This document shows, piece by piece, positions 532 to 29,019 of a DNA stretch of 29,019 bases. Position numbers and translations under genes: made by a program. This stretch comes from a virus. Positions within the stretch are counted from its first letter, which is position 1, and each line of letters opens with the position of its first letter. The notes under the pieces were generated by a model. That model saw nothing but the letters and a program-made list of their open reading frames with translations. It was not told the DNA's origin and ran no database searches. The stretch is from IMG/VR virus record IMGVR_UViG_3300036985_004639, positions 1-29,019 of that record; one strand, given 5' to 3'.

Positions 532-997
532 AACGCGCACTCTGATCACGGCCGTGGTGGGTAGTTTCGCCGTAACCACAACGGTGATTGGTATCCTTTT
601 CCGGCAATTGCTCAAGAGCTATCGAGACCACGACGCGCAACGGTTCGAGGTGCTCCGGAGCGAGTACACCATGCAGATAGAGGCGCTCCGAAAAAGCGCG
701 CAGGATACGATCGAAGCGCGAAGAGAATGCGAATTGCGGGAGAATGGCGCGTTGAAGCGGCTCGAGGACGGGATCGAAAAAATCCGGGACAGATGGGAGC
801 AGTTTGTCCGGGATGACGCGGCCATGGAAGCCACCCGCGGGCGCAAGGTGGATGCCCTATTCAACGTCGTCGATTATGTAAAAGAAGAGGTGCGCGGATT
901 GAAGCCAGTGATATTTCAACGGCTGGATGAGGGATACCGCAAAATAAAAACAGAGGTGATCCAAGAAATCCGGGCAGATTTACGGAAAGGTGCGTAG
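521..997 (+). CDS. membrane-anchored coiled-coil protein
   Basis: The start is GTG at 521, preceded by a purine-rich GAAGGGG (508-514), and it overlaps the receiver gene by 11 bases. The 158-residue product has one hydrophobic segment at about residues 8-29 (LITAVVGSFAVTTTVIGILF). A long charged helix rich in Glu, Arg and Lys follows and should form a coiled coil through about residue 110. This is a bitopic inner-membrane topology with a long soluble helical tail. Inner-membrane spanins and some holin-associated proteins look like this, but no diagnostic motif is visible and no lipoprotein partner with a Cys lipobox is seen nearby. Function is therefore open. A tie to the receiver protein through co-translation is an inference from the overlap. 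Confidence 0.6.
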   Translation: MDSETRTLITAVVGSFAVTTTVIGILFRQLLKSYRDHDAQRFEVLRSEYTMQIEALRKSAQDTIEARRECELRENGALKRLEDGIEKIRDRWEQFVRDDAAMEATRGRKVDALFNVVDYVKEEVRGLKPVIFQRLDEGYRKIKTEVIQEIRADLRKGA

Positions 998-5332: not shown

Positions 5333-7636
5333 ATGGCCAGCAGCATTTTTTTCGGAGGCAGGCTGATCAGCGTGCCGGGCTCTTACAGTGTGGTGGACGC
5401 CAGTGGGCTGGAGTCTGTCGGGCTGAGCGCGGCCGGGATCGTGGCGGTGATTGGGGAGGCCGAGGGCGGTATCCCGGTTTCGGAAATCGCCGACATCGAC
5501 GATTTCATCCGGTGCCGGAAGCCGGAAAAGGCGCGGGAGTATTTCCGCGCGGGCCCGCTCCGGGAAGCGGCGGACATGGTATTCGCTCCGGCGAAGGACG
5601 TGGCCATCCCGGGCGGGGCGGTCGAGATGGTGGCCATGAAGGTCAACCCGGCCACCCAAGCCACGGCACCCCTGGCCAACACCTACGGGGATGCGCTCAC
5701 GTTGACCAGCAAGGACTACGGGGCTTTCACCAGCCAGGTGAATGTCACGATCGAAACCGGGACCAGCCAGGGCAAGCTGGTGACCATCACGTTCGAGGAC
5801 GTGGTGGAGTCGGCGGACGATCTGGGCGGTGACGCGTTTTTCACGATCACTTACACCAAGGGGACCGGTGGCTGGGGCACCATGACCAGCGAGGTCGCCA
5901 GTGGTGGCCTGATCGCTTGCCGCGGGACCCGTACCAACCTCGGGCTGGACGACCAGATCGCGGGGCAGTTGTCGGGCAATAGTCGGGTCGAGGCGAAATC
6001 GTCGAGTGCTTCGGATACAGCCATCCAGTTGATCGTTTACGGCCTGGCAGCGGCGGGAACGGTCCAGCAAGAGAGCATCATCCTCGCCGGCACCACGGTG
6101 GTGGCGGGGCTTCTGACTTTCTCGAAAGTCATGGGCGCGCGGATAGTCGGCACGGCCGTGGGAACAATCACGCTCCAGCTCCTAGCGGCCGGGGCAACGG
6201 TGTTGACGGTAGCAGCAGGGGCCAACACGATGAAGGGCTTGACCCCCTGCGCTACTCTGTACGTGGGCAATACGATCGTTTACGCGATATCCAGCGGGGC
6301 CAGCACCAAGAGCGTGATCCTGATCGGTACGAGCGCGGCCGGAGCGGCGCAGATCGAAAAGGTGGTGTTGACCGGGGTGGTTTCCAAGCCCGGAGTTTCC
6401 ACCTGGAGCGAGATCACTTATATCGCCCTCGGCGAGGTCGAGGCGGCCCAGACGATCACTTTCTCGGCGGTGGCGCTCCAGACCACGACCCTGCAAAACA
6501 CCATGCAGAAGGTCGCGGACTACGTGAACGGGCGAAACAACGGGACCAATGGTTTCGTCCTCACCCAGATTTTGGGGCTGTACACCTTCGACCCGGCCAA
6601 CCTGGACGTGACGCTGGGCGCAGGCGGCGCGGTGGACTGCTACACGGTGAGCCCGAGCTATTATGCCAACCTGTGGCGGATCGTGGATTGGATCAATCAG
6701 AATAGCGCCTTTGTCACTGCGGAAGCGGCGACCGGCGCCAAGGGCGGAGCCCCGAGCAACACTACAGCAGCGGTATATCTGTCCGGCGGTAGCGAGGGGA
6801 CCACGGCGGCCGAGCACTGGCAGTTGGCTTTCAACCTCCTGAAACAGATCCGAGTCAACACGGTGGTGCCCCTGACCGCTGACCCGGCGGTGCACGCCAT
6901 GGGCGACGCGCACTGCGCCTATATGTGCGGGATCGGCCGGAGCGAGCGCGACCAGGTGGTAGGCCTGAAAAATACGGCCATGACCGACCTGGCCACCAAG
7001 ACCGAAACAAAGACCCAGATCGTGGCGCTCAATTCGCGGCACACCCGGGCGGTATCCCAGGCGATGGAGCGGTACAACACGGCCGGCGAGCGGGAGGAGT
7101 TTGACCCCTGTTACCTGGCTGCGGTGGTCGCTGGGATGCAGGCGGGCTCGACCGTGGGCGAGTCGCTGACTTTCAAGTACGCAAACGTGCTCAAGCTCCG
7201 GCAGGCCTCGAGCTGGAACCCGACCGATGACGCCGAGGAGATGATCCAGGCGGGCCTTTGCTTCCTGGAGCTGGTGGACGGGATCGGTCGGCGGGTGGTC
7301 CGAAACAACACCACCCATCTGGCGACCAACAATTCCAGTTATGTCGAAGCAAGCGTCAATGAGGCGGTGAATTTTGCCGTTTACAACCTGCGCGGAAACC
7401 TCGAGGTGGCCGTCGGCCGCAAGGGCTTCTCCGGGACGGTCAACGGCACCAAGGGCGTGGCAATCGCCTCCCTCGGGTTGCTCAAAGACGAGGAAATCAT
7501 CGTGGCCGATCGGTCGCTGGCCGTGGAGCTAGCCGTGGATGTGATGGAGGTGTCCGTGGAGATGGCCCCAGTCATTCCGGTGAATTTTGTGAAAACAACC
7601 GTCCACCTCGTCACGACGCGGATCGCCGCGGTGTAA
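5333..7636 (+). CDS. contractile tail sheath protein
   Basis: The 767-residue product starts at ATG 5333 behind GAGGAGA. The N-terminus (MASSIFFGGRLISVPGSYSV) matches the sheath pattern of a short arm followed by a P-G-xY strand. The C-terminal third has the conserved sheath core: YMCGIGRSERDQVVGL, LAAVVAGMQAGSTVGESLT and a final strand VNFVKTTVHLVTTRIA. It would polymerise around the tail tube and contract during injection. T4 gp18 is 659 and Mu gpL 495 residues, so this one is enlarged. The extra length lies at about residues 130-390, which holds two related beta-rich segments (about 236-282 and 331-380). The direct downstream tube gene confirms the context. Confidence 0.9.
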   Translation: MASSIFFGGRLISVPGSYSVVDASGLESVGLSAAGIVAVIGEAEGGIPVSEIADIDDFIRCRKPEKAREYFRAGPLREAADMVFAPAKDVAIPGGAVEMVAMKVNPATQATAPLANTYGDALTLTSKDYGAFTSQVNVTIETGTSQGKLVTITFEDVVESADDLGGDAFFTITYTKGTGGWGTMTSEVASGGLIACRGTRTNLGLDDQIAGQLSGNSRVEAKSSSASDTAIQLIVYGLAAAGTVQQESIILAGTTVVAGLLTFSKVMGARIVGTAVGTITLQLLAAGATVLTVAAGANTMKGLTPCATLYVGNTIVYAISSGASTKSVILIGTSAAGAAQIEKVVLTGVVSKPGVSTWSEITYIALGEVEAAQTITFSAVALQTTTLQNTMQKVADYVNGRNNGTNGFVLTQILGLYTFDPANLDVTLGAGGAVDCYTVSPSYYANLWRIVDWINQNSAFVTAEAATGAKGGAPSNTTAAVYLSGGSEGTTAAEHWQLAFNLLKQIRVNTVVPLTADPAVHAMGDAHCAYMCGIGRSERDQVVGLKNTAMTDLATKTETKTQIVALNSRHTRAVSQAMERYNTAGEREEFDPCYLAAVVAGMQAGSTVGESLTFKYANVLKLRQASSWNPTDDAEEMIQAGLCFLELVDGIGRRVVRNNTTHLATNNSSYVEASVNEAVNFAVYNLRGNLEVAVGRKGFSGTVNGTKGVAIASLGLLKDEEIIVADRSLAVELAVDVMEVSVEMAPVIPVNFVKTTVHLVTTRIAAV

Positions 7637-12811: not shown

Positions 12812-13761
12812 TGGCTAGTAATGTCATAGGGTTTGGCACAAGAATCCAGGAGGGCATTCCCCGACGGCCGGCGAGTCGGGGCGAGCAGCGCGCGGGCGGG
12901 CTCATGTTGCGGGGGGTGGTCATGGCCACCTACGTCTCTGACTCCCCCGGGCACCCGCACGAGGAGGACACCAGCAATCCGCCGGTGGCCGTCTACTGCG
13001 ATGTGCTCGTAATGCCCTCCATCTCCCGCCAGAGGTGGTTTGGGCTTCGGGGGGTGCTGGTATCCCAACCCCGCGGGGGAATGCACCACGGGGCCGTCTG
13101 GAAGCCCAGAGCCACCACGGTGGACCTCTCGAGCAGCCTGGACTCCTCTGGCGCGATCGCGAATCCCGCCTATCTCGACGGGGATCACGTCCTGATCGGG
13201 TTTTTGAACGACAATCTATCCCAGCCGGTGATCCTGTCTGGGTTGCCGCACCCGTCCACGGACATGGGAAACGAGACCAAAGACCTGGGTTTTCGCATGA
13301 AGCTCAAGGTTGCGGACGGGGACCCAGAAATCTGGAAACACCATGGGATCTGGTGGGGCGTGACCGACGCGGGGGATTTCCTGGTAGATACCACTTACGC
13401 GAACAACGGCAAGCTGGCGGCGGATGGGAAAGAGGCCGCGCCGAAAACCGACGGCTCGGCCGGGAATTTCACCGTCCGACTTCCGACCGGAGCCAAGCTC
13501 ATTCTGAAGATCGCCGACGGGGCGTCAATTGAGTGGTCGGGGTCGGCGGCGACAGCCCAGCTAATCGTGGGCAACGGGGCGGTCAAGGCGGCCATCGCCG
13601 ACCACTTGCAGCAGCTTTGGGGGACGCTCAAGAGCTGGCTGGAGGCGGTGACTGTGCCCACGGGGATGGGGCCCAGCGGGACGCCAAGCAACACCCCAGC
13701 GACCGCCTGGAACACAAACATCAATTCCAATCAGCTCAAATTTCCCGACAACGGAGCGTAA
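12811..13761 (+). CDS. baseplate spike protein (gpV / gp5 OB-fold-like)
   Basis: The start is ATG 12811 in the overlap TAATG; an earlier in-frame ATG at 12700 lies inside the hub gene and is rejected. The 316-residue product has an OB-fold signature at residues 123-147: YLDGDHVLIGFLNDNLSQPV followed by ILSGLPHP. This is the hallmark of gpV, gp5 and VgrG spike proteins. Before it, VSQPRGGMHHGAVWKPRA forms the other OB strands. The C-terminal part (LPTGAKLILKIADGASIEWS) is beta-helix-like, ending in a helix. The spike caps the tube and pierces the outer membrane on contraction. No lysozyme domain is present, unlike T4 gp5. Confidence 0.85.
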   Translation: MASNVIGFGTRIQEGIPRRPASRGEQRAGGLMLRGVVMATYVSDSPGHPHEEDTSNPPVAVYCDVLVMPSISRQRWFGLRGVLVSQPRGGMHHGAVWKPRATTVDLSSSLDSSGAIANPAYLDGDHVLIGFLNDNLSQPVILSGLPHPSTDMGNETKDLGFRMKLKVADGDPEIWKHHGIWWGVTDAGDFLVDTTYANNGKLAADGKEAAPKTDGSAGNFTVRLPTGAKLILKIADGASIEWSGSAATAQLIVGNGAVKAAIADHLQQLWGTLKSWLEAVTVPTGMGPSGTPSNTPATAWNTNINSNQLKFPDNGA

Positions 13762-13762
13762 C

Positions 13763-14239
13763 ATGGCGCTGAGTGCGAGCACGTTGAAAAGCCAGATCGA
13801 GAATATGGCGAATACGGACACCGAGGTGACCGCTTGTAGCAATTGGGCTACGGGCTTCGATGAGTATTTCAAGGGCGCAGGGTGCAATGGGGCTCCGGTA
13901 GCTCCGGCGGCACTGGTGGCGGCCAAGGCCGCCATGCAAGGGGCGCTGGCGGGCATGAGCGGGCCAGGACAGGGGTCGGTGAAGCTCCAGGCGGCCATTG
14001 TCGCCTACTGGGGGGCCCTGATCCCAGCGGTAGCCTGGCCTCCTGCGACGGTCATTACCCCCCCTCCAGGGCTTGCTGGTTTGGCTCCGGCGCTGGTGGC
14101 GGTATTCCTGGCCAATACTACCGGGAAAAAAAGCAAGGCGGATTCAGCCCAGACAATCGCGAACGCGATTCATGCAATTATGATCGTGGGTGGCTTGGGT
14201 GTTTTTCCGCCTCCGATTGGGCCCATGCCCATTTTGTAA
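13763..14239 (+). CDS. small Ala/Gly-rich baseplate-region protein
   Basis: ATG 13763 lies one base after the spike stop. The 158-residue product is Ala/Gly/Pro-rich and mostly helical. Recognisable segments are PAALVAAKAAMQGALAGMSG, LQAAIVAYWGALIPA and a Pro-rich VITPPPGLAGLAPALVAVF. It ends in a hydrophobic GGLGVFPPPIGPMPIL. The hydrophobic stretches are not long enough to be convincing membrane spans. Location between the central spike and the LysM wedge protein suggests a baseplate component or spike accessory. I do not recognise a named family. Confidence 0.5.
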   Translation: MALSASTLKSQIENMANTDTEVTACSNWATGFDEYFKGAGCNGAPVAPAALVAAKAAMQGALAGMSGPGQGSVKLQAAIVAYWGALIPAVAWPPATVITPPPGLAGLAPALVAVFLANTTGKKSKADSAQTIANAIHAIMIVGGLGVFPPPIGPMPIL

Positions 14240-14250
14240 AGGAGACTTCC

Positions 14251-16224
14251 ATGGCGGTAGCTTCAACGCTCGCATACGTCAAAGAGCTTCTCCGGCAAAA
14301 AATGGCCCAAGATGAAAATTTTCAGAAACGATTTCTCCATTTTTTTGAATTGCAGGTCCCGAAAGAAGTCGCTTATATCGAAAATCTTACTTTTCTTTTC
14401 CCGATTATCCTTCCGCCCCAGAGCTATTCCATGGAGGAGCCGTTTGCCGCGGAATTGAGCTTTACCCAGGGGGGCGGGCTCTGGGCAGAAGAAAATGGGA
14501 TCGTCCGGAGAATAATCCGGTTGCGGGGGAATACTGGCTGGAAACCGCGATCGCTCAAAGTAGAATTTAATTCCCCCAAAGCGGTGGATATTGCGAATTC
14601 GAAACAATCATACTCGCGGAAATTGCCGGATACCGTACTTTCCGCAATTTCCGGGCAGCGCCATTTCCAGTATCTCCAGGATTCAGTATTCCGGGCCTAC
14701 GCGGACCTGAAAGCCGACCCAGCCACGGCGAAAGACACCAAGCTGATTTACCACAACCCCCAGGATATGGAGCACTGGGTGGTGGTCCCTAACCGGTTTA
14801 CCCTTCTGCGGGATCGCGCCCAGCCGTTGCTGTACAACTACGATATCGAATTGTTTGCCGTCGAGCGCGGAGAAGACATTGACGCGGATTTTTCCGAGGA
14901 CAAATCCATTTTCGATCTCGTAAAAGGCGCTATGAGCCTGGTGAAATTAGGGCTCGATCTATTGCAGGGGGCCATCAATGACTTGATCGCGCTGGAGGGC
15001 GTGATTATGGGGTTTGTGAAAAACATCGATACCCTGATCGCTCGAGGTGTCGAGGTGGGGGAAGCGGTCCAGGATTATGTCGAGGGGCGCGCGGAATTGA
15101 TCGATGCTACTTTTGATTATGTGGCGGCGCACCTTACAAATTGGGAAACCGCGGCCGGGACAATCGCGATGTACATGGATCGCAATGAAGGGGATAAATC
15201 GGTACCAGAGGAGGTATTACAGAAAATCCGAAAGGTGGCCGATGCGATCAATTTGATATTGGCGCACCCGGAGCTTTTCGAGGAGCCCGTCGAGGCCGCG
15301 GTGCGAAAGACGCGGGAGGACCAGGAATTCCGCCGAGGGATCAATTCCAATCGACAAGTGCAGGCCCTCATAAGCCCGGCGCCGACCTCGTTCGAGGCGG
15401 TGCGGGAAAGGGGCACCGAGCTGACTCCTGGGGACGTGCAGATCGGCGAGGGGGATATTCTGGCCGGGAGCACCATTCCAGTGTACCGCAATGCTCGGCA
15501 AATCGTCCTCACCGCGGATGACACCTTGCCCAGCCTGGCAGCACGGTATCTGGGAGACGCGCGGAAATGGCAGCTTTTGGCGATGTTTAATGGGCTCAAA
15601 CCCCCTTACATCGATAACCAAGCGTCTCCCCCATTGGCTCGAGGCGTGGGTACAGGTTCGACGGGTATCGGAGGAGCTTCTGGCCCGCTCGAGCGTCCGT
15701 TCACCGGTGTGCTGGGTATTGGATCGAAAATCGCAATCCCGACCAATACGCGATCGGTGCAGGATATGGGTATTTTGCCGGTGCTGGGTGCGCGCACGGA
15801 ATTGCCGGCGGAAGAGCGGGCCCTCGGGGCGGACTTTTGCCTGGAAGCGGTTCCAGTAACGGTCAATTCCAGCCAGGTCAAATACGATATCCCGATTGAT
15901 ACGGAAATGGGATCGACCGACGCCAAGATCGTGCGGGGGATGGCCAATCTGAAACAGGCGATCGTGATCCGCTTGTGCACTGAACAGGGCACTGATTTGT
16001 TGTATCGCCGTCTAGGCGTCAAGCGGTTAATCGGATTGCGAAGCACCCTGGTGGACCTCGAGCTTTGCCGCTTTCGGATTTCGCAAGCTATCTCCGGCGA
16101 TCCGCGAATTGTGACTGTAAAGAGCGTGGATCTCGTGCAAACAGACGATATGCTGGAAGTGGATTTAGTGGCCGAGGTAAGGGGTTTTTCGGAAAAACAA
16201 GAGATCCATACTACGATCCAATGA
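14251..16224 (+). CDS. fused LysM baseplate protein and gp25-like wedge protein
   Basis: The start is ATG 14251 behind an excellent AAAGGAGA; the open frame extends upstream but that part lies in the previous gene. The 657-residue product has three parts. Residues 35-110 resemble the N-terminal domain of LysM tail proteins (FLFPIILPPQSYSMEEPFAA, then IRLRGNTGW). Residues 220-350 are a long helical insert. A LysM domain follows at about 415-460 (TADDTLPSLAARYLGDARKW). Residues 540-657 form a gp25/gpW-like wedge domain: MGSTDAKIVRGMANLKQAIV, then LGVKRLIGLRSTLVDLELCR and DMLEVDLVAEVRG. T4 keeps the LysM protein gp53 and gp25 as separate neighbours in the wedge; here they appear fused. Confidence 0.78.
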   Translation: MAVASTLAYVKELLRQKMAQDENFQKRFLHFFELQVPKEVAYIENLTFLFPIILPPQSYSMEEPFAAELSFTQGGGLWAEENGIVRRIIRLRGNTGWKPRSLKVEFNSPKAVDIANSKQSYSRKLPDTVLSAISGQRHFQYLQDSVFRAYADLKADPATAKDTKLIYHNPQDMEHWVVVPNRFTLLRDRAQPLLYNYDIELFAVERGEDIDADFSEDKSIFDLVKGAMSLVKLGLDLLQGAINDLIALEGVIMGFVKNIDTLIARGVEVGEAVQDYVEGRAELIDATFDYVAAHLTNWETAAGTIAMYMDRNEGDKSVPEEVLQKIRKVADAINLILAHPELFEEPVEAAVRKTREDQEFRRGINSNRQVQALISPAPTSFEAVRERGTELTPGDVQIGEGDILAGSTIPVYRNARQIVLTADDTLPSLAARYLGDARKWQLLAMFNGLKPPYIDNQASPPLARGVGTGSTGIGGASGPLERPFTGVLGIGSKIAIPTNTRSVQDMGILPVLGARTELPAEERALGADFCLEAVPVTVNSSQVKYDIPIDTEMGSTDAKIVRGMANLKQAIVIRLCTEQGTDLLYRRLGVKRLIGLRSTLVDLELCRFRISQAISGDPRIVTVKSVDLVQTDDMLEVDLVAEVRGFSEKQEIHTTIQ

Positions 16225-16233
16225 GGTGAGCCC

Positions 16234-17646
16234 ATGCCCCGATTTCAAACGAAACGATACGAGCAAATCCTGACTGAAATGCTAGCCAAGCTCGTGGCGC
16301 GCACGGACCTATCCGATATTTCCGATTCAGCGGCGGTGAAACACTTGCTGGCTACGGCGGCCCGACAAGATGACGAGCAATACTACCAGATGCACCTCCT
16401 CTTGCAGCTTTTCTCCATAGACAAAGCGACCGGCGAGGATCTGGACGAGCGGGCGATGGATATCCAGCCCGGGACCATCGTGCGGGCGGCTGCGACTAAA
16501 GCCGTGGGGACGGTGGTGCTCACGCGCGCGGGTACCACGGGGACTATCATCCTTCCGGCGGGAATTCGGATGAAAACTGCGGGGGGAATAATTTTTGTGA
16601 CTACGGCGGCGGGGAGTATCACCGCGTCGAGCCCCGAGCAGATCGGCGGGCATGGGGTCGGCCGGGATTCTGGGGTGATCCCTGTTATCGCGGAAGTTGC
16701 TGGCGTGGCTGGAAATGTGACCTCGAACACGATCATAAAGTTTGTCAGTAAACCGGTAGGGGTCGATTCAGTGACAAACCCTTCCGGCTGCATCCACGGG
16801 GTGGACACCGAGACCGACGCGGCATTTCGAGCGCGGATCAAGCTATTTGTGGCCTCACTTGGGCGATCTACGGTGCCGGCGATCGAAAGTTGCGTCCTTC
16901 AGTTAATTGATCCGGATACCGGGGCGGTGGTCCTTTACAGCAAGGCGGTGGAGGACATCATCAACCCGGGGAATGTAACGCTGTACATCGATGACGGCAC
17001 CGGTTATGCCGAAAGCGCGGAAGCGGTCACCGGGGAAGAGCTGACCGAGGGGCTCGGAGGGCCTCCGGCGGATACCGCGGCCGGAGGAGAAACTACGCTG
17101 TATCTGGATTACGCGCCGATCAAGCTGAATGCTGGCATCACCCTGGTTAGCTCGGAGCGTGGGGAGTTGACCGAGGACGACACCTATTTTGTCAACCCAG
17201 CCAGTGGGCAGATTGTTTTTGACCCGGCGCTGGTGGCGACAGAAACAATCACGGCGCATTATCACAAATACCTGGGGCTGATTGCTCTGGCGCAAAAAGT
17301 AGTGGATGGCGATCCGGACGATCGAGTGAATTATCCTGGCTACCGGGCGGCGGGGATTCTGGTGGTGGTGCAGGCCCCCCAGGTGCTCATGCAGACGGTA
17401 TTAATATCTGTGACGGTGGCGGAAGGGTACGATGACGCAAGCGTGAAGGTGGAGGTGGCCGAGGCGATCAAGACATACATCAATAGCCTGGGTATTTCTC
17501 GGGATGTGCTCCGCTCGGAGCTGATTTCCAGAGCCCAGCGAGTGACTGGGGTTTACGACATCGTGCTGACCACTCCAGCGACGAACGTGATTCTATTGGA
17601 TGACCAGCTAGCGCGGGTTTCCGACCAGACCATTACTGTGAACTAG
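16234..17646 (+). CDS. baseplate J-like wedge protein
   Basis: The 470-residue product starts at ATG 16234 behind GAGGTGAG. It has the baseplate J pattern: an N-terminal helical part (TDLSDISDSAAVKHLLATAA, then GEDLDERAMDI); an early beta domain (GTVVLTRAGTTGTIILPAGI, then GGIIFVTTAAG); and the later signature (VDTETDAAFRARIKLFVASL) that precedes helix GRSTVPAIESC. The C-terminal part carries VQAPQVLMQTVLISVTVAEG. J/gp6-like proteins form the wedge ring that transmits the contraction signal to the sheath. The region around residues 265-350 (EELTEGLGGPPADTAAGGE onwards) is an extra beta-rich insertion. Directly follows the gp25-like gene, the usual W-J order. Confidence 0.88.
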   Translation: MPRFQTKRYEQILTEMLAKLVARTDLSDISDSAAVKHLLATAARQDDEQYYQMHLLLQLFSIDKATGEDLDERAMDIQPGTIVRAAATKAVGTVVLTRAGTTGTIILPAGIRMKTAGGIIFVTTAAGSITASSPEQIGGHGVGRDSGVIPVIAEVAGVAGNVTSNTIIKFVSKPVGVDSVTNPSGCIHGVDTETDAAFRARIKLFVASLGRSTVPAIESCVLQLIDPDTGAVVLYSKAVEDIINPGNVTLYIDDGTGYAESAEAVTGEELTEGLGGPPADTAAGGETTLYLDYAPIKLNAGITLVSSERGELTEDDTYFVNPASGQIVFDPALVATETITAHYHKYLGLIALAQKVVDGDPDDRVNYPGYRAAGILVVVQAPQVLMQTVLISVTVAEGYDDASVKVEVAEAIKTYINSLGISRDVLRSELISRAQRVTGVYDIVLTTPATNVILLDDQLARVSDQTITVN

Positions 17647-19935: not shown

Positions 19936-22900
19936 ATGGGTGCTTCCTTTCTGATTATCGAATCCGCTGGCGATCGGGTACCGGATTCTTACGTTGAAAC
20001 CGCGGTAGTGTCCATTCCTACTTCGTTCAGCGCGCCGTTGAATATCCCTGAAAATACCGTGGATCTAACGTGGGTGAATCCAATCGAACGGATTTTCGAT
20101 CGCGTGATGATCCGCGAATCGACCACGGACCACCCAGCTACTCCAGCGGCCGGGAATTTGGTTTATGAGGGCCCGCTCGAGGCCTACGCGCACGCGACGA
20201 CGCTGTACGAGGTCCACTACTACTCGATTTGGTCGGTGAGCACTGAAGGGGATTATTCAGCCAAGGTTGAAAGCCAATCGGGGCAGGTTGCGGCTCCACC
20301 GGATATCACCGATCTGGTAGTGGATACGGATTTCGCAGAAAGCAAAGTAGTTCTTACCTGGACCAATACCGGGGGCACGTTTGACCATGTAGAAATCTAT
20401 GAAAGCGAATCCGGGTACCCGACGGTTCCAGGCGCGGATCGCCTGGTGTACTCGGGGGCGCTCGAGACCGTTGACGATCCGGGGCTTCTCCTGGGAGTGC
20501 TCCATTACTATGCGATTTGGTCGGTCAATAGCGTAGGCGGATATTCCGATAACGCGGATACAGGCATTTCTGAAATTCTAGGTATCCCGGACGCAATCAC
20601 TGATTTCGGAGTGGAGACAGTTTTTGCGGAAGACAAGGCGACGCTTACCTGGACAAATCCAGCCGGATCTTTTGATCATGTCGAAATTTATGAAAGCGAA
20701 ACGGGTTACCCGACCATACCCGGCGAGGACCGCCTGGTGTACTCTGGCCCGCTCGAGACTTTCGACGATGAAGGGCTCGATCTGGGTGTGGTGCACTACT
20801 ACTCCATCTGGACAGCCAATGTCGAGAATGCCTATTCGCTCACGGCTGATACTGGGTTAACCACCCTCTTACCGCTTCCGGATGCAATCACGGACCTGGA
20901 GGTGATTTCCGATTTTCTAAACGAAAAGGTCACGCTGAACTGGACCAATACCGGCGGATCTTTCGATCATGTCGAAATCTATGCGAGCAATTCGGGTTAT
21001 CCGACGATACCAGGCGCAGACCGCTTGGTATATTCCGGATCGGCGGAAACGGCGGACGATCTATCAGTAGAATTCGACATCCTGCACTACTATGCCATCT
21101 GGGCGGTAAACGCGCTGGATGAGTACTCGCTTTTATCGGATACCGGAATTACCGAAATAGAGGGGCTCCCAGCAGCAATCACGGATCTGGGCCTGGTAAT
21201 GAATACCGAGGCCGGATCTATTACGCTGAGCTGGACGAATCCCGGCGGCACTTTCCACCATGTCGAGCTTTACGAGAGCGAAGCTGGATACCCGGTAACC
21301 CCGGGAGCTGGGCGGCTGGTATACTCTGGGCCCAATGAGACGGTGGATGACCTCGATCTGGATCTAGATCCGATCCACTACTATGCCATCTGGACGGTCA
21401 ATTGTTCAGACGCTTACTCTGCGACCTCGGACACGGTTGCCTCCACCGATGTATTCGGGCCGGACGCCATTTTCCCGTTTGTTGCGACCCCAGGCCCGGA
21501 TCTGATCACGCTGACCTGGACAAACCCAACCGCGGCGGATTTCGCAGGGGTGACCATTCGACGCTCGAGCAGTGACTACCCGGCGACCCCTACCTCGGGC
21601 ACGCCGGTGTACCACAACAGCGGGCACTCCTACGTTGACGCGGGGCTGGTGTACGGCACCACCTATTTCTACTCGGCCTGGGCTTACGATGAGGTGCCCA
21701 ACTATTCCGAGGTAGCGCATGCAACCGGCACACCGGCCCCCAATTACGCGGTGGAGGCCCGACTGGGCCCCGTGGGGCTTATCCAGGCGCTCACCCAGGC
21801 AATCGGAGAATCGGATACTGAAATCGGTGGATTTCGGCTGACCAGGTTGTCGGCCGTGGCGAACGTCGGAGCTACTACTTTTTCGGTTGAATCCACGAGC
21901 GGCTGGGATGAATCCGGCAAGGTGGGCATTGATGGGGTGCTGTACAGCTACGCGGCCAAGACCCTGGCCAGTCTGACCGGGATCACTCATAGCGCGTCCG
22001 GGGTGACGGTTGCCGGCGCGCGGGTAGCGCACCGGATCGAGGCGGTGGTGGCCGATTGTTCCCGCACTTCGAGCGCGGTGGATTTGTGTCGGCGGGCCAT
22101 GCTGGTGGAGTACGCCGAGGCCGAGGACTTGAGCGTGATCGGTCGAAACCTGGGAGTCAACCGGCTTGTTTTCTTTTCTGAGGATGCGCAGTATCGGCGG
22201 CTGATCAAAGCCATGGCCTACAACCCCAAAGGCACTACATTCGGCGTGGAGCTGGTGCTGAATGCCATTCTAGGGGAAGGAAACTATGAGCTATGGGAGG
22301 ATTTGATCCAGCACCCGTGTATCCTGTATGTGTACATTCCCGTCGGCGAGATCATGGGGACCAGCTTTATCGGTCGAGCTTTCCTGGATGCAGCATTTTA
22401 TGGGGTGACCTCTGGCGCTGGAAAAGACACCATAGTGATGGATCACGCGCCCTTGTTCGTCGGCACGGTCCGCTTGCTGGACCTGGGGGAGTTATTTGAT
22501 TTCCGGGTGCGTATCCCCGGAGCAATCACCTACCTGTACCATTCGGATGCGCTGGTGGAGCTGGCGGCTTTCACCTATTCAGGAGCCAGCACTCCAGAGA
22601 CGGATTTTGTTGCCGTGGTTTCGGCGCAAGCGTGCAGTCGCCTGAGCACTTTCGGAGCGACTGTTTTCTACACCATGGCCGACACCCAGGGGGCGCGGGT
22701 TGCTGCGGTCACCGAAGCGGAGGTGAGCTGGCTGATTTCCGTCTCGGGCGCGGTCAAGACCGGTGAGCTGGCGCAGGCGTCAATCACCATTTTCGATGGT
22801 GCTTATCAAATAAATTTGGGGCTAGATACCGACGGCGGCACCGGGATCGAAATCGGGCTGTATGCCACCTCGGGCGGGGGATTCCTGGGAAGCACTTTCA

Positions 22901-24090
22901 CCGGACTGAAATCGACCTGGTACGAGGTATCGCTCCGAAAGCACGGCGCGGATACCGTGGAGCTTTGGGTGGATGGGGATCTGGTGGCGACGGTGGCCTA
23001 CGGGAGCTTTACCGCGGCGACCACCGATCACAAGATCGAGTGGGGGATTCGCGGAGCGCCCAGCTCGGGCCTGGTGGTGGACACCAAACAGCTCGGGGTG
23101 CAGCTCGAGACCGCTACGGACTTCTGGAATGCCCGAGGAGCCCTCGGAGTGGTAGGGACGGCCAACCCCACCCGATTCTCGGATGGAGGGGCCGCTATCC
23201 TATCCGCTGGCGACGTGGGGAGCTATCTGGAGATCACTGGGTCGGGGATCGAGAATGCCCAAGGGGGGAACAATAACGGGCAGTGGGAGATTGACACCCT
23301 GGTGTCTCCGGGGATTGTGACGCTCAAGGGGGCCGTGCACCTGGCCGTGGTGAGTTTTTTGACCGCCTATCCGACGCGGATCACGGTCGAGGACCTCGAG
23401 GCTTTCAGCTACCCCGATGATTTGGGTAAGCAAATCGTGATCACGGATTCAGAGCTGGGAAACAATGGCACCTACGTCATTTCGGATCTCCTGGAGGTGG
23501 GAACCCTGCTGAACCTCGACGAATTCGAGACCCCGGTGGCGGCTCGGACCAATGTTTGCGAGGTGGTGTCTGCAAGTTTTGTGTCGGAATATCGGGCATC
23601 TTATCAGCTTTTCCCGATTTTCTCGACCGAGACCGGGCTGGATTGGGAGCTATCCGACGCGGGGAGCTTCACCGATGAGACCATCACGCTCCGGCAAGGG
23701 GGCTGGGGCACTGCCCTGGTGATGCGCGTGGGGATCGAGGACATGCTTTCGGGACAGCTCTTGCCCGATGCAGGGACGTTCAATGAATTGCTATCGGAGG
23801 CCCCTGAAGCAATTTATCGGTACTACCCATTTTATTTGTATGACCCCTTCGCCACGGCTGAATCCTACCTGGACAGCATTACCGCGGCCGGGGTGCTTAC
23901 CCAGTTTGTGACCGTGATCGAGGGCGGCGGGATCGTGCGGCTGGTGGAGGTCGATCCGGGCCCGCTTGCGCTTAACCTGGAATTCAACACGCCGATGCTG
24001 GGTGCTGGCCCGTTGCTGGACCCGGCGAGCTACACCGTCACGGTACCGTCTACTGAAGAGGACTGGGATGTCGATACGGAGCTTGTTTGA
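19936..24090 (+). CDS. Fn3-repeat, gpI-like and lectin-like multidomain tail protein
   Basis: ATG 19936 follows GAGGTGACC. The 1384-residue product starts with six Fn3-like repeats of about 96 residues (about 20-600), with recurring TWTNTGGTFDHVEIYES and HYYAIW motifs. Residues 604-870 look like a gpI/wedge-type tail protein: SVIGRNLGVNRLVFFSEDAQ, then YNPKGTTFGVELVLNAILGE and CILYVYIPVGE. This includes a beta module like that of the 18069 gene (about 635-710). Residues 880-1065 form a concanavalin-like lectin fold (GLKSTWYEVSLRKHGADTVE, then LWVDGDLVATVAYG). The C-terminus ends in an SbsA-like Ig strand (NLEFNTPMLGAGPLLDPASY). It may bridge the baseplate to fibres and bind glycans. The stop overlaps the next ATG (TGATG). 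Confidence 0.68.
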   Translation: MGASFLIIESAGDRVPDSYVETAVVSIPTSFSAPLNIPENTVDLTWVNPIERIFDRVMIRESTTDHPATPAAGNLVYEGPLEAYAHATTLYEVHYYSIWSVSTEGDYSAKVESQSGQVAAPPDITDLVVDTDFAESKVVLTWTNTGGTFDHVEIYESESGYPTVPGADRLVYSGALETVDDPGLLLGVLHYYAIWSVNSVGGYSDNADTGISEILGIPDAITDFGVETVFAEDKATLTWTNPAGSFDHVEIYESETGYPTIPGEDRLVYSGPLETFDDEGLDLGVVHYYSIWTANVENAYSLTADTGLTTLLPLPDAITDLEVISDFLNEKVTLNWTNTGGSFDHVEIYASNSGYPTIPGADRLVYSGSAETADDLSVEFDILHYYAIWAVNALDEYSLLSDTGITEIEGLPAAITDLGLVMNTEAGSITLSWTNPGGTFHHVELYESEAGYPVTPGAGRLVYSGPNETVDDLDLDLDPIHYYAIWTVNCSDAYSATSDTVASTDVFGPDAIFPFVATPGPDLITLTWTNPTAADFAGVTIRRSSSDYPATPTSGTPVYHNSGHSYVDAGLVYGTTYFYSAWAYDEVPNYSEVAHATGTPAPNYAVEARLGPVGLIQALTQAIGESDTEIGGFRLTRLSAVANVGATTFSVESTSGWDESGKVGIDGVLYSYAAKTLASLTGITHSASGVTVAGARVAHRIEAVVADCSRTSSAVDLCRRAMLVEYAEAEDLSVIGRNLGVNRLVFFSEDAQYRRLIKAMAYNPKGTTFGVELVLNAILGEGNYELWEDLIQHPCILYVYIPVGEIMGTSFIGRAFLDAAFYGVTSGAGKDTIVMDHAPLFVGTVRLLDLGELFDFRVRIPGAITYLYHSDALVELAAFTYSGASTPETDFVAVVSAQACSRLSTFGATVFYTMADTQGARVAAVTEAEVSWLISVSGAVKTGELAQASITIFDGAYQINLGLDTDGGTGIEIGLYATSGGGFLGSTFTGLKSTWYEVSLRKHGADTVELWVDGDLVATVAYGSFTAATTDHKIEWGIRGAPSSGLVVDTKQLGVQLETATDFWNARGALGVVGTANPTRFSDGGAAILSAGDVGSYLEITGSGIENAQGGNNNGQWEIDTLVSPGIVTLKGAVHLAVVSFLTAYPTRITVEDLEAFSYPDDLGKQIVITDSELGNNGTYVISDLLEVGTLLNLDEFETPVAARTNVCEVVSASFVSEYRASYQLFPIFSTETGLDWELSDAGSFTDETITLRQGGWGTALVMRVGIEDMLSGQLLPDAGTFNELLSEAPEAIYRYYPFYLYDPFATAESYLDSITAAGVLTQFVTVIEGGGIVRLVEVDPGPLALNLEFNTPMLGAGPLLDPASYTVTVPSTEEDWDVDTELV
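20020..21750 (+). repeat. six tandem Fn3-coding repeats, about 290-base period
   Basis: Equivalent positions such as the codons for PDAITD recur near 20299, 20587, 20878, 21166 and 21460, a spacing of 288-294 bases. The middle four copies are alike even at DNA level; TTTGATCATGTCGAAAT-type stretches appear near 20382, 20670 and 20961. The outermost copies have diverged. The similarity makes this a likely site of unequal recombination. Confidence 0.8.
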
Positions 24091-24563
24091 TGAAAATCAA
24101 AATTGCCTTTTCACGGGACATGGCAGTGAATGCAGCTTTGATTGCTCCAGGCAATTACGGGATAGTGCTAACCCCCGATGGGGTGCAACCGCAAGTTGAA
24201 TCGGTAGAAGTGCTGGATGCGTTTTCCATCAAAGTAATTTTTGATAAGCCGATGGAGCTAGACTCCATTTTAACTGATCCTGCAAATTACGAAATCGATT
24301 TCCTTTGGAGCCATGTCACTTTTACAGTCGAAGCATTGAGCGCCACGGAAGTGAAGGTGACTTTTAGTGAGGACATGCTAGAAAATGGGGCGCTGGTGGC
24401 TACCGATAATTACGACTTGGAAAACAAAGTAGACCCCCCTACTGAGTGGGATTTTGTTCCGGAGGCGGATACTGCGACTGAAATCATTGTCACGTTTTCA
24501 AATCCCATGACCATCAATCCGGATCTGTATGATCCCGCCAATTACGTGATCAGCGAGGTATAG
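24090..24563 (+). CDS. SbsA-like (Big_5) Ig-repeat protein
   Basis: I choose ATG 24090 in the TGATG overlap, with GGAG (24078-24081) upstream, over TTG 24087. The 157-residue product consists of four SbsA/Big_5-type segments: IAFSRDMAVNAALIAPGNY, KVIFDKPMELDSILTDPANY, KVTFSEDMLENGALVATDNY and IVTFSNPMTINPDLYDPANY. Each carries the family's F-x-x-x-M ... NY core. No enzyme or membrane features are present. The first segment starts abruptly at a mid-domain strand, as if the protein continued from the similar C-terminus of the upstream 1384-residue protein. A spacer or adhesive shaft role is likely. Confidence 0.65.
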   Translation: MKIKIAFSRDMAVNAALIAPGNYGIVLTPDGVQPQVESVEVLDAFSIKVIFDKPMELDSILTDPANYEIDFLWSHVTFTVEALSATEVKVTFSEDMLENGALVATDNYDLENKVDPPTEWDFVPEADTATEIIVTFSNPMTINPDLYDPANYVISEV

Positions 24564-24565
24564 CT

Positions 24566-25729
24566 ATGGCCCTAACAGTAGAGCATGTACAAATTTTGAA
24601 TTCGAAAGAAGTGAAGCTGACCGTACAAGAAATGCGCGATGGGGCAACCTACGAGCTAACCGTCTCGAACGTGCAGGACATCAACGGCGATACGATAGAT
24701 CCGGCCAATGCTACCGCGGAATTTATCGGGATCGGGACCTTGCCGCAAGTGGTGAGTATCGCCAAAGTGGATGTCACCCACCTGTCAGTGCTATTCGATG
24801 AAGTCATGGCCGATGACGCCAATTTCATCAATGCCGCTAATTACGCGGTGACGGGCCAGAGCACTCCAGGCGTGGTCGGTGTTGCGCGATCGGTTGACGG
24901 GCTTACCGCTACTCTGGAGCTGGACGAGGATTTGGAAACCGGGACCTACGGAATAGCTGTAGAAAACGTAGTAGACGCTGGTGGCAATTTAATTGATGGG
25001 GCTCATGATTATGCAGAGACCGCGATAGTTATCGGGCCGTGGCGTGATCATGCTTCTCTGGGTACTAACCTGGTGGCGCATTACAAGATGGAGGATGAAA
25101 CCGATTCTTCCGATAATGGATACGATGGGGCTTATGAAAGCGGGACTCCCGACTCGATTACCGGAAAAATAGGAAATGCTCTGAGCTTTGTTCCCTCGGT
25201 TCGGATGAATATCCCAGCCAATGCGGAATTGAACGCGCTGAATGCTTTTACCATGGCCGGCTGGTTCAAAATTACAACGATCGCCGGTTCATGGCATACG
25301 CTGTGGGGGCGTACCGGGCAAGTGAGCATGACTGTGGTCGGGAGCGGGGATCATGTCGGGAAAGCGTACATGGGAATTTATGTAAACCCGCCCACATATA
25401 CACTCAGGGAAACGCTGACTTCGACGACGGCGCCCGAGAATGAATGGTGCTTTATCGTGGGGTCCTTTAACGGATCTACTGCAACCAAAGTACACATAAA
25501 TGGCGTAGTACGCGGAACCGCGTCTTTTACGAGCACCACCCTTGCTACGGTGGATGAGACCCATCCATGGCGAATCGCGATTGCGCAAAACAATACGGAG
25601 AAAAACGGAAATGAGGACATGCACAGCCCGTTGGCTGGCGGAGCCGACGAGCTAACTGTATGGGGCCGGGAATTGACCCAACCGGAAATAGATTATCTGT
25701 ACAATAGTGGAGCCGGGCGTGCTTTCTAA
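24566..25729 (+). CDS. tail adhesin with Ig-like anchor and LamG lectin domain
   Basis: ATG 24566 lies two bases after the upstream stop, behind GCGAGGT. Residues 1-155 are Ig-like, containing two SbsA-type units (PQVVSIAKVDVTHLSVLFDE, then INAANYAVTG) and are clearly homologous to the start of the next gene. Residues 165-385 form a textbook LamG/concanavalin-like lectin domain: LVAHYKMEDETDSSDNGYDG, then KIGNALSF, FTMAGWFKI and DELTVWGRELTQPEIDYLYN. LamG domains bind carbohydrates, often with calcium, so a receptor-binding role at the tail surface is inferred. It is a 387-residue protein with no recognisable catalytic motif. Confidence 0.75.
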   Translation: MALTVEHVQILNSKEVKLTVQEMRDGATYELTVSNVQDINGDTIDPANATAEFIGIGTLPQVVSIAKVDVTHLSVLFDEVMADDANFINAANYAVTGQSTPGVVGVARSVDGLTATLELDEDLETGTYGIAVENVVDAGGNLIDGAHDYAETAIVIGPWRDHASLGTNLVAHYKMEDETDSSDNGYDGAYESGTPDSITGKIGNALSFVPSVRMNIPANAELNALNAFTMAGWFKITTIAGSWHTLWGRTGQVSMTVVGSGDHVGKAYMGIYVNPPTYTLRETLTSTTAPENEWCFIVGSFNGSTATKVHINGVVRGTASFTSTTLATVDETHPWRIAIAQNNTEKNGNEDMHSPLAGGADELTVWGRELTQPEIDYLYNSGAGRAF

Positions 25730-25744
25730 AGTGAAGGGGACTCC

Positions 25745-28700
25745 ATGGCAGTGCTCACGGTACAATCAGTTGAAATAATCAGCAGCACAACGGTACGCTT
25801 GGAAGTCACCGGTATGCAAGTGGGGGTAGTTTACAATGTAGAAGTGAGCGAGGAGATAGAATCCCTTTCTGGCAGATTGATAGATCCAGCGTACAATGCT
25901 GCGGATTTTACGGGAGACGGCACTATTCCCCAGCTTCTTTCGGTCGTGTTGGTAGACGCGCTGCACATAGATTTGGTTTTCTCAAAGCCCATGATTGACG
26001 ACCCCATATTGCTGTACCCTACCAACTATACCGTAACTGGCGACATGGATAGCGGCACCACCCTGGTGGAGCGCAATGAAGCTGGAGACGGGGTGCGGCT
26101 CACGTTAGCAGATCCTTTGCTGTACGGCGACTATCGCGTTGCCCTGGACAATTGCCCCGATACCGATGGAAATCTTGTACCGCCAGAAAACGCAGAAATG
26201 GATTTTTCCTCTGTTCGAGAAAATCCGGTAAGCGATCTGGTTACGATGCTAACCGACAATACGGACGAGTGCCTGATCGAGGTTAGGGCAATTGGCATAA
26301 TGGTGGATGGAGTATACCCAGAAATCGCACTTAGGCTTTTCGGGGAAGAGGTGGTCCGCTGGAGTGATGTCCGGGGCAAGGTCGAATACTATCAAGCGGA
26401 AAGAAATGGCTATCTGCATGCGGGAAAAGTAACCCCCGCTGATATCCAGGTGGCGTATACCAATGACGTGCTAGGCGGCCCCGAGCAAGAGTGCTTGGCT
26501 TTCTGGGAGCTGGACGCGGCTTCTACAGTAACGGCCGCATACCAATATGAGCGGTTCGATCGCTTTCGCCCTTCCGCAAAAATGACGCTGACTGCCCCCT
26601 CGGCCGGAGGAGATGTCAATCGGCTTAATGCGCTGAGCCAGGATCTCCCCGAGGTGGTGGTGGGTCAGACGGTTATCATTTCTGGCCAGGTTAAAATGCT
26701 GGAGGGAGTTACCGCGCGGGTGCGCTTTACGCTAGGGACGGAAGAGGGGCTCCTGGTATCCACTCTGGATTTGGAGGGGACAGGGGACTGGGAAAGTTTT
26801 CGACTGGAGCCCCTGGTGGCGACTCTGGGGAATACAGAGGGGCGAGTTAGCTTGATCGTGGTATCCCCGGATGTCGGGAGCACTGTGGCCGAATGGCGAG
26901 ATATTCGGGCGGGGCTCGAGCTTCTGGAGAATTGTAATTTCGAGACCACGATCGAGCCCTGGTACACCCATCTCGGGAGCAAGTGTTTCCCTACGCTCTT
27001 GACCGAAGAGGCGGGCCCTTACGGTCACGCCGAGCTTACGATCCTGGAGACAGAGCCCAGCAAGCGGTTTTACCATAGCGTTTCTTTTGATGCTCACCGG
27101 GGCAAGGTGGTGCTTTTTGGCGGGAATGATGGAGTGGTCAAGGGCGATACCTGGGAATATACAACGGCCACCCATACCTGGGCAAAAATAACACCGGCCA
27201 CGACCTCCCCCAGTGCTCGAGGCCTGCACGCCGCGTGCTACGACAGCCTACGGCACCGGGTAATCATCTCCGGCGGGCAAGATAGCGGTGGGGGACATTT
27301 GCAGGACCTTTGGGCGTGGGATGGAGTGGACTGGACCGACATCACGCCGGTGGGCACCAAGCCCGGGGCTCGGCGAGCGCATGCGATTGCCTATGATTCC
27401 AATCGTGACGTGATCATGCTCTTTGGCGGGGTAGCCAGTGTAAAAAACAATGAAACCTGGGAGTATAATTGCGCAACCGGTTTGTGGGCTGAGATTTTCC
27501 CAGTCGCAGGCATAAAACCGTCTCCTCGCCAGTATCACACCATGGAATACGATACCGTGAAAAGACGGCTGGTGCTCTTTGGAGGTAGGACAGAGACCAA
27601 CCATTCGGATGAGACCTGGGAATACAACGGAGGGATTCAATCCTGGGCGCTGATGACAATAGCGGGGGATAAGCCGACCGCGCGGGATGAGCACAAAATG
27701 GCCTATGATTCGGTGCGTAGGCGCATGCTTATTTTCGGCGGGAACGACGGGGCTTACAGTGCTACTTCTTTTGATGACGAAACCTGGGAATATGATAGCG
27801 CGACCGTGAGCTGGAGTATGGTGCAGGGCGGCGGAGATCCTGGAGGTAGCAATCCAATGGGGCGGGTTGCTTTCGGCATGACATATGACTCTATTGCCCA
27901 GCGTAGTGTGCTATTCGGCGGATGGACAGGGGCCATCCGTAATAATGAAACTTGGGAATTTTCAGGGAGCACGACAAGCTGGGCGCTGCAATATGCCGGG
28001 TATGACCCTCTGAATTACGGATCAAGCCATTGGAATTCTATCCTCCAGGCTCCGGGAGAAATCCCCGACGGATCGCAGATCCGACTTCGCGGAAAATTCA
28101 GAGCCCCAGTGGATACTGAATTGCGTATCCACGTATACGCCATACCGTGGACCACGGGGGTGATTGGGGCCTGGGGGCCCTTTTCTGGATCAGGAGACTG
28201 GGAGGATTTCGAACTAGCTGATGTGGTAGTGGATACCGACCATCGCGATGTGCAAATCCGGTTGGCGATCCATCTCCCAGATGCGACAGGGAGCTGGGCT
28301 GACTGGAAAGATATTTCGCTCACGCGAAACATTATCCGAAACGGCACTTTTTCCGACCGAGGAGCGTTGATCGACGCGGTTTTGATTGACGGGAAAATTT
28401 ACGAGACCGAGGGCGCCGAGGTGCTATCCACGGGATCGTGGCTTCCCGGAGACGGGGCGTTACCCAGCCCGGGATACCGGCAAACCGAGGTGCTGACCAA
28501 TAACGGGTATTTCGATTTTGCCGGGGTGAGTGACGAGGAGATCCTGGATGGTGTTGACGCGCGGATCGATACCTACAGGAAAGGAAACGGGGTCATTTCC
28601 GTAGTGAATGGGGTTGGCCAACCGGTGGTAGGGGTTGACGTGACGGTGGAGCAGCTTACCCATTCTTTCCTTTTTGGGTCGGGTATATTCGAATGGTATG

Positions 28701-29019
28701 AGAGTTATGTGGCCCCAGGGTATCCTCCTCTGACCGAGGCCCAGCAGCTTTGGTCCGATACGTGGCGCGCGTTGTTTTTGGACGTTTTCAATTTCGCAAC
28801 CCTCCCCTATTACTGGGTGAGCGGCGAGCTGGAAAATGGGTCCATGCTTCACGCGGCAAATTACGAGGCCCTAGCCTGGTGTCTGGCCAATGGAGTACAG
28901 GCCAAGGGGCACCCTATCTTTTGGAACGCGGACGAGCCAGCGTGGATCAATAATTGGAGTGATCTAGATGCGGTAAAAGCGCGGGTTTTCGGATACCTCG
29001 AAAAGTGTATCGGAAATAG
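25745..29019 (+). CDS. tail protein with Ig-like anchor, Kelch propeller, CBM-like and GH10-like domains (partial at 3' end)
   Basis: Starts at ATG 25745 behind GAAGGGG and stays open to the window edge (1091 codons plus two bases). Residues 1-155 match the anchor of the preceding gene (PQLLSVVLVDALHIDLVFSK). Residues 225-390 look like a CBM4/9-type jelly-roll, and a second copy begins near 392 (ENCNFETTIEPWY). It is interrupted at 440-748 by six Kelch repeats (HTMEYDTVKRRLVLFGGRTE type, each with a GG and a WEY/WEF), then resumes to about 860. From about 938 it follows a GH10 glycanase pattern (DARIDTYRKGNGVISVVNGV, then FNFATLPYYW at 1015-1024 and KGHPIFW at 1054-1060). The catalytic Glu motifs would lie beyond the edge, so activity cannot be judged. 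Confidence 0.8.
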   Translation, partial: MAVLTVQSVEIISSTTVRLEVTGMQVGVVYNVEVSEEIESLSGRLIDPAYNAADFTGDGTIPQLLSVVLVDALHIDLVFSKPMIDDPILLYPTNYTVTGDMDSGTTLVERNEAGDGVRLTLADPLLYGDYRVALDNCPDTDGNLVPPENAEMDFSSVRENPVSDLVTMLTDNTDECLIEVRAIGIMVDGVYPEIALRLFGEEVVRWSDVRGKVEYYQAERNGYLHAGKVTPADIQVAYTNDVLGGPEQECLAFWELDAASTVTAAYQYERFDRFRPSAKMTLTAPSAGGDVNRLNALSQDLPEVVVGQTVIISGQVKMLEGVTARVRFTLGTEEGLLVSTLDLEGTGDWESFRLEPLVATLGNTEGRVSLIVVSPDVGSTVAEWRDIRAGLELLENCNFETTIEPWYTHLGSKCFPTLLTEEAGPYGHAELTILETEPSKRFYHSVSFDAHRGKVVLFGGNDGVVKGDTWEYTTATHTWAKITPATTSPSARGLHAACYDSLRHRVIISGGQDSGGGHLQDLWAWDGVDWTDITPVGTKPGARRAHAIAYDSNRDVIMLFGGVASVKNNETWEYNCATGLWAEIFPVAGIKPSPRQYHTMEYDTVKRRLVLFGGRTETNHSDETWEYNGGIQSWALMTIAGDKPTARDEHKMAYDSVRRRMLIFGGNDGAYSATSFDDETWEYDSATVSWSMVQGGGDPGGSNPMGRVAFGMTYDSIAQRSVLFGGWTGAIRNNETWEFSGSTTSWALQYAGYDPLNYGSSHWNSILQAPGEIPDGSQIRLRGKFRAPVDTELRIHVYAIPWTTGVIGAWGPFSGSGDWEDFELADVVVDTDHRDVQIRLAIHLPDATGSWADWKDISLTRNIIRNGTFSDRGALIDAVLIDGKIYETEGAEVLSTGSWLPGDGALPSPGYRQTEVLTNNGYFDFAGVSDEEILDGVDARIDTYRKGNGVISVVNGVGQPVVGVDVTVEQLTHSFLFGSGIFEWYESYVAPGYPPLTEAQQLWSDTWRALFLDVFNFATLPYYWVSGELENGSMLHAANYEALAWCLANGVQAKGHPIFWNADEPAWINNWSDLDAVKARVFGYLEKCIGN
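27068..27988 (+). repeat. six Kelch-type repeats coding a beta-propeller
   Basis: Six successive units of about 50-60 codons each carry the order aromatic/His - YDS-like turn - V-x-x-FGG - (D/N)xTWEY - W. Examples are HSVSFDAHRGKVVLFGG, HAIAYDSNRDVIMLFGG and GMTYDSIAQRSVLFGG. Six copies would close a six-bladed propeller. The units have diverged at DNA level, unlike the Fn3 repeats upstream. Confidence 0.8.

Follow-up and report, generated by a model that had tools for sequence, protein, structure and literature searches.

How could one phage tail carry two unrelated heads, and where would each of them dock? The question is raised by a linear fragment of viral DNA, IMG/VR record IMGVR_UViG_3300036985_004639, which we analyzed over its full 29,019 bases (the window) and which encodes a contractile-tail gene set. 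Just downstream of the baseplate genes, two adjacent open reading frames (ORFs) code for head proteins: ORF 24566-25729 specifies 387 amino acids with a LamG head (the LamG protein), and ORF 25745-29017 specifies 1,091 amino acids with a Kelch propeller and runs off the contig (the Kelch protein). A sequence-only reading of this DNA had proposed that the two share a paralogous immunoglobulin (Ig)-like N-terminal anchor. We find that this module opens with the orphan C-terminal half of an Ig domain of the Big_5/S-layer type, that one complete Ig domain comes next, and that the gene upstream ends in the N-terminal half of a domain of the same type.

Two head proteins share an old N-terminal module

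The proposed paralogy is borne out by pairwise alignment. In BLASTP, residues 1 to 165 of the LamG protein and 1 to 172 of the Kelch protein align over 142 residues with a single gap (38% identity, 57% positives, 92.4 bits, E 5e-29). The unadjusted Smith-Waterman score of the two modules is 246, and 2,000 shuffles gave a mean of 35, a standard deviation of 6.4, and a maximum of 71. Generic Big_5 similarity does not reach this level: in a set of 10 Big_5 proteins, nine bacterial and one from a phage locus, the best scored 126 against the first module and 119 against the second. When the module is divided, the excess is uneven. The complete Ig domains (domain 2) score 139 against each other, with generic Big_5 proteins at 97 or below, and are similar at z 22.3 (z scores are from 400 shuffles). 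The first 58 residues (half1) score 105, versus 98 for L048, a bacterial array protein, so taken alone they go hardly beyond generic Big_5 similarity; the two half1 segments are similar to each other at z 18.5. The shared stretch had been put at about 155 residues, and the alignment stops at about residue 143 to 145.

The modules are 46% identical in nucleotide sequence, and 19 of 58 identical residues have identical codons. The alignments support a common origin of the two N termini, an old one, and with these figures neither a duplication nor a swap of recent date can be demonstrated. Of the duplication and domain swapping suggested earlier, common origin is supported; we dropped recent duplication on the nucleotide identity.

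The heads differ, as had been claimed. Beyond the module, Pfam finds LamG in one protein, and in the other a Kelch propeller and a weak CBM60-like stretch (Table 1), followed by a GH10 xylanase-like domain of which the beginning is present. Residues 944 to 1075 of the Kelch protein match the beta-xylanase 8b73_A at E 4.7e-14. The GH10 assignment rests on this PDB sequence match because the Pfam match is weak (0.11, below cut-off) and the contig end cuts the domain after about 130 residues. In having two adjacent head proteins with the same N-terminal module and unrelated heads, the locus resembles shared-anchor multi-receptor-binding-protein systems. A Kelch propeller, a GH10 xylanase-like start, and a CBM60-like stretch in one tail-locus protein also form an unusual phage head.

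The module is half an Ig domain plus a whole one

Pfam detects Big_5 (PF13205) in the whole LamG protein at 24.3 bits, above the cut-off of 23.6, and over residues 68 to 144 only. Domain 2 of this protein alone scores 21.2 bits, just below the cut-off; a scan of the Kelch protein gave no Big_5 match. Half1 of either protein (residues 1 to 58), presented alone, gave no Big_5 match either and does not qualify as a complete domain.

The AlphaFold2 model of the LamG protein gives domain 2 three strands and then four, with a predicted local distance difference test score (pLDDT) mostly of 82 to 93. Half1 has four strands (residues 4-10, 16-21, 28-32, and 50-54) at pLDDT 57 to 68, and in count and approximate spacing these agree with the final four strands of domain 2. 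Fold comparison of residues 58 to 158 matched domain 2 to the S-layer protein SbsC, 4uj6 (VIA Z 12.5, root-mean-square deviation 3.2, 97 aligned residues; Foldseek E 1.1e-5); SbsB and Sap rank next in the VIA list.

Sequence comparison points the same way. Half1 of the LamG protein is similar to the C-terminal halves (C-halves) of both domains 2 at z 7.0 and 7.7, versus z below 4 for their N-terminal halves (N-halves). A profile built from the two domain-2 C-halves only was run over 1,552 ORF products of the window and of 43 loci, L002 to L044. Its top nontraining match was half1 of the LamG protein, with an independent E-value (iE) of 0.072 at Z=19000; the profile missed half1 of the Kelch protein, which is assigned as a C-half because of its similarity to the first half1. 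The anchor is thus Ig-like, as read earlier; it is made up of one half and one complete domain, and the arrangement extends upstream through the 24090 gene as far as the end of the 19936 gene.

The missing N-half ends the upstream protein

The gene that starts at 24090 codes for a candidate adaptor made of four N-half-like units, u1 to u4. Each was recovered by a leave-one-out hidden Markov model (HMM), with iE values computed at a deliberately large Z=19000 (Table 1), and they resemble the N-half of domain 2 of the Kelch protein at z 5.8 to 13.8. An AlphaFold2 model of the adaptor, at pLDDT 42, was too poor to use. The protein ends in u4, an N-half of the same domain type, and nothing follows in its own chain to complete it.

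We then joined the halves across the gene boundary. Alone, u4 gives no Big_5 match. Joined in genomic order to half1 of the LamG protein, it scores 21.1 bits over positions 21 to 96 of the 105 in the profile; intact domain 2 scores 21.2. Joined to half1 of the Kelch protein it scores 17.2 bits. The match is absent when the order is reversed, and it is gone when either u4 or half1 is shuffled. The C terminus of the LamG protein joined to half1 of the Kelch protein, which are true genomic neighbors, gives no Big_5 match. From the LamG head to the ATG at 25745, all frames lack an N-half, so the second candidate plug comes without an adjoining socket of its own in the window; the candidates are u4 and the end of the 19936 gene.

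An unsplit homologue shows the two halves together. The module alignment matched 9 of 282 genomes from the phylum of L018, a baseplate-J locus in the chromosome of a Myxococcales metagenome-assembled genome (MAG), CP070713.1. The best match, at E 1.1e-12, is L048, a 3,135-amino-acid ORF in which an N-half and, immediately after it, the half1 counterpart lie in a single chain. U4 plus half1 aligns to L048 with no gap at the junction and scores 139, versus 98 for half1 alone; none of 300 shuffles of u4 reached 139 (maximum, 123), and u2 or u3 in its place gave 117. With the second half1 the score rises from 73 to 106, again with no shuffle of 300 reaching it, and the C terminus of the LamG protein joined to the second half1 gave no gain against L048. 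Nine further targets were compared with u4 plus the first half1, with 300 shuffles of u4 each. The gain is clear in L053 (0/300 shuffles reach the score) and smaller in L034 (3/300), L056 (10/300), L051 (15/300), and L050 (22/300).

A candidate split-domain joint and its alternatives

These complementary sequences on the two sides of a gene boundary suggest a plug and socket. Half1 of either head protein would complete the orphan N-half in which the adaptor ends, u4 and half1 forming one whole Ig domain from two chains, with the module as the docking plug. Around the baseplate, copies of this one socket would then be contested by the two head proteins or apportioned between them. We hold this reading tentatively, at a little short of an even chance. 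A weaker inference is that the adaptor would itself be held by an N-half-like extension of the baseplate protein 19936-24090, a junction that may work alike. The array register would be (end of 19936/u1), (u2 u3), (u4/half1), (domain 2), with two gene boundaries lying inside Ig domains. Generalized to a relay, in which proteins end in an N-half and the next ones start with a C-half, the scheme would join the baseplate protein, the adaptor, and interchangeable heads through Ig folds built from two chains, and any head gene bearing the half-domain could plug in at the same site; we consider this wider version somewhat less likely.

Several results weigh against such a joint. U4 is not uniquely the best partner: u3 plus half1 scores 21.5 bits and u2 plus half1 scores 17.2. 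The end of 19936, u1, and the N-half of domain 2 of the Kelch protein give no Big_5 match when joined to half1. Neither do u2 plus u3 or the end of 19936 plus u1 when joined to each other, so the full array register is not established. Half1 is also weakly like u4 and u2 themselves (z 5.8 and 4.9), because the two Ig halves are themselves alike. Its low pLDDT may reflect alignment depth only, as few of the five rows cover it. In L049, L052, L054, and L055, u4 adds nothing beyond shuffles. Finally, the cassette occurs in one record only, and no independent contig confirms its boundaries. Since u2, u3, and u4 all complete half1 (u2 with the second half1 gives 13.8 bits), what fits is the N-halves of the adaptor, and u4 is singled out by its position at the chain end, not by score.

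The strongest alternative is a plain Ig stalk, in which half1 pairs with the half1 of another protomer in the oligomeric fiber or folds alone, u1 pairs with u2 and u3 with u4, and no domain is split between proteins. That u3 completes half1 as well as u4 does in the Pfam test fits this account, as it marks no unit as a special partner; so does the model, which gives half1 four strands by itself. Tail fibers are usually oligomers, and Ig arrays are common spacers. However, u3 joined to u4 gives no Big_5 match, the model of half1 is of low confidence, and the equivalent segment of L048 is preceded by an N-half within its own chain. We consider a plain stalk unlikely, though a serious contender.

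Alternatively, the halves could be relics of a long Ig array cut by gene fission, or by an assembly or sequencing error, the break being without function. Indeed, the end of 19936, the 24090 product, and the LamG protein read as one array with two Big_5 stretches when joined, and no second contig covers the boundary. Yet each of the genes at 24090, 24566, and 25745 has its own plausible start signal, either a Shine-Dalgarno-like site or a stop-start overlap (Table 1), and the Kelch and LamG proteins start at the same point of the domain despite different upstream neighbors. Two Big-like domains also flank a stop-start gene junction, a 4-base overlap at 14565-14568, in another record, L034, from a related phage. 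The Big-like domain at the end of its gene 13132-14568 lacks the last strand, and the next gene (region to 17060) has a whole Big domain at its start, fused to a 19936-type core. As no orphan half is supplied there, L034 is a partial precedent only. We judge a functionless break to be quite improbable.

Separate capture of the two modules from bacterial cell-surface proteins, with no duplication in the phage, would agree with their 46% nucleotide identity and with a half1 nearly as close to L048 (98) as to its neighbor (105). Against it stand the score of the whole module, 246 versus at most 126, and the same start point and the same order of half and full domain in adjacent genes, and we give it very little credence. 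A programmed frameshift could fuse 19936, 24090, and 24566 into one polypeptide; it would need the same shift (-1/+2) at both boundaries, each of which has an open overlap of about 36 nucleotides. We dropped it as scarcely credible, since no slippery heptamer was seen by eye near either stop, the genes have start signals, and half1 of the Kelch protein would be left unexplained.

Table 1. Positions in the window of the features discussed, with the evidence for each
Feature	Coordinates	Strand	Basis
Sheath-like protein	5333-7636		Pfam 6.5e-5, below its cut-off
Tail tube initiator-like protein	13882-16224		Pfam and PHROGs scans
Baseplate J	16234-17646		Pfam and PHROGs scans
Baseplate-proximal protein, 1,384 aa (amino acids)	19936..24090	+	Fn3-like repeats, core 613-1327, 57-aa C-terminal extension
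N-half-like Ig unit in extension (candidate first socket; weak)	23911..24054	+	z 7.2 to N-half of domain 2 of Kelch protein, 400 shuffles
TGATG stop-start overlap joining 19936 and 24090 genes	24088..24092	+	GGAG 8 nt (nucleotides) upstream of ATG
Candidate adaptor protein, 157 aa from ATG 24090	24090..24563	+	Four N-half-like Ig units
Unit u1	24090-24188	+	Leave-one-out HMM iE 1e-4
Unit u2	24189-24311	+	Leave-one-out HMM iE 8e-8
Unit u3	24312-24434	+	Leave-one-out HMM iE 5e-5
Unit u4, orphan Big_5 N-half at adaptor C terminus (candidate socket)	24435..24560	+	Leave-one-out HMM iE 4e-6
GAGG, Shine-Dalgarno-like	24555..24558	+	7 nt before ATG 24566
Half1 of LamG protein, C-terminal half of Big_5 domain (candidate plug)	24566..24739	+	z to domain-2 C-halves; profile; AlphaFold2
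Complete SbsC/Big_5-type Ig domain, LamG protein	24740..25045	+	Pfam Big_5; AlphaFold2; fold match 4uj6
LamG head (Laminin_G_3, PF13385), LamG protein	25214..25690	+	Pfam 9.2e-15, 55.5 bits, cut-off 27.6
AAGGGG, Shine-Dalgarno-like	25734..25739	+	5 nt before ATG 25745
Half1 of Kelch protein, C-terminal half of Big_5 domain (second candidate plug)	25745..25927	+	z 18.5
Complete Ig domain, Kelch protein	25928..26224	+	z 22.3; alone below Pfam detection
CBM60-like stretch, Kelch protein (weak)	26276..26482	+	Pfam 0.0031, 18.4 bits, cut-off 28.2
Kelch propeller, Kelch protein	27047..28048	+	Pfam PF24681 1.2e-46, PF13415 1e-42, six stretches
GH10 xylanase-like domain start, cut by contig end	28574..28969	+	PDB sequence match 8b73_A, E 4.7e-14; Pfam GH10 0.11

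Comparison with known systems

In the donor-strand complementation of chaperone-usher pili, the incomplete Ig fold of one subunit is completed by another. One short strand is donated there, whereas here about three strands of an N-half would meet four of a C-half, in heterologous proteins. S-layer proteins with Big_5 or SbsA_Ig domains (SbsC, SbsB, and Sap) have the fold of domain 2 (Z 12.5 to 4uj6). Their domains lie whole within one chain, in contrast to the present phage tail locus, where two genes each encode part of one domain. That several receptor-binding proteins can share a docking module is already known. The branched tailspike (TSP) complex of Ackermannviridae (TSP1-4, with anchor, XD, and TD domains) is described as linked by Gp10-like XD and TD modules (PMC11414711; PMC8825819). 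It resembles the present locus in its several clustered head proteins with conserved N-terminal assembly modules and variable receptor-binding C termini (PMC11414711), and differs in that its modules are the Gp10-like XD and TD domains of tailspikes, as opposed to an Ig half plus a whole S-layer-type Ig domain. XD and TD families were absent from Pfam and PHROGs scans of the two head proteins, and tblastn of the modules found no phage record, these being sequence scans only. In phage DT57C, the branched lateral tail fibers have LtfB attached through LtfA, with Ig-like domains in the virion (PMC10713586). As proposed here, two head proteins are served by one attachment site; the sections of that article consulted describe no split Ig domain. 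Among titles and opening lines of abstracts in the open-license PMC literature, none was found that describes a phage-tail joint with a split or strand-complemented Ig domain.

The half-domain anatomy supplies a concrete candidate docking mechanism that was absent from the sequence-only reading. If it holds, attachment through one Ig domain whose halves come from separate genes would be novel for such proteins and would explain the exchange of sugar-binding and xylanase-like heads on one tail. It also offers a searchable signature for other phages, an orphan C-half at an N terminus and an orphan N-half at the C terminus of the upstream protein, and the split-Ig reading is directly testable with two small proteins.

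The baseplate protein and searches for relatives

The core of the 19936-24090 product (residues 613 to 1327) is homologous by BLASTP to the baseplate protein of related records. Its 57-residue C-terminal extension is absent from 16 of 16 full-length relatives aligned to the core end (L028 and L033 appear to represent a single gene), which have 0 to 18 residues there. The N-half-like unit in this extension gave iE 0.7 in the leave-one-out HMM at Z=19000 and no Pfam match. The four relatives examined carry other fiber genes after the 19936-type gene. Given these neighbors and its absence from the relatives, the extension together with the 24090 gene and both modules resembles a single acquired cassette, as judged from the association in this one record; the absence from all 16 relatives is consistent with the extension having arrived together with it. 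N-terminal additions vary widely among these relatives, from 2 to 471 residues. In the window, positions 19936-21770 encode tandem repeats of about 85 residues that are Fn3-like by eye and below the Pfam fn3 threshold.

A search of related phages for the same anchor had been suggested, and no relative of the module was confirmed in them. With tblastn at E 0.01, the first module had no relative among 50,697 phage records, nor among 72,556 plasmids, and at E 10 the second had none in phages. Viral contigs searched with the first module, a two-row alignment, and the 24090 product yielded no confirmed relative, and genome contigs searched with the second module yielded none. The module alignment found 0 of seven related viral records. 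At E 10, the 24090 product hit three phage records, the best being Erwinia phage Yoloswag (E 0.02), a match taken as chance because the annotated genes there lie on the other strand. In the scan for PF13205, which covered 35 of the 43 related loci, 2 had it, L034 and L007, and our own profiles, run against the ORF products of all 43, gave convincing matches in L034 only.

Genomic setting

After baseplate J, the genes follow in the order 17656, 18069, 19936-24090, 24090-24563, 24566-25729, and 25745 to the contig end. A query with the 19936 core missed even known relatives, which the baseplate-J alignment found: the J protein as a query led to 16 viral loci, and the J alignment led to 42, those 16 included. 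The J homologue of L018 (L018:10001-11614) lies inside CP070713.1 with tail genes alongside and matches at 57% in its best segment; the element is probably a prophage or a tail-like element. The annotated phages that have a related J protein include the Myxococcus phage Mx1, and with L018 in a Myxococcales MAG this makes a Myxococcota host possible. The J homologues of L009, L010, L018, L027, and L034 are longer than that of the window (536 to 582 versus 470 residues) and align with it in two segments.

Rfam and ARAGORN found no RNA gene and no tRNA gene in the window, and an NCBIfam scan of five proteins gave nothing informative. At the start of the virus contig, positions 1-531 carry a weak response-regulator receiver match (Pfam 1.3e-5, below cut-off).

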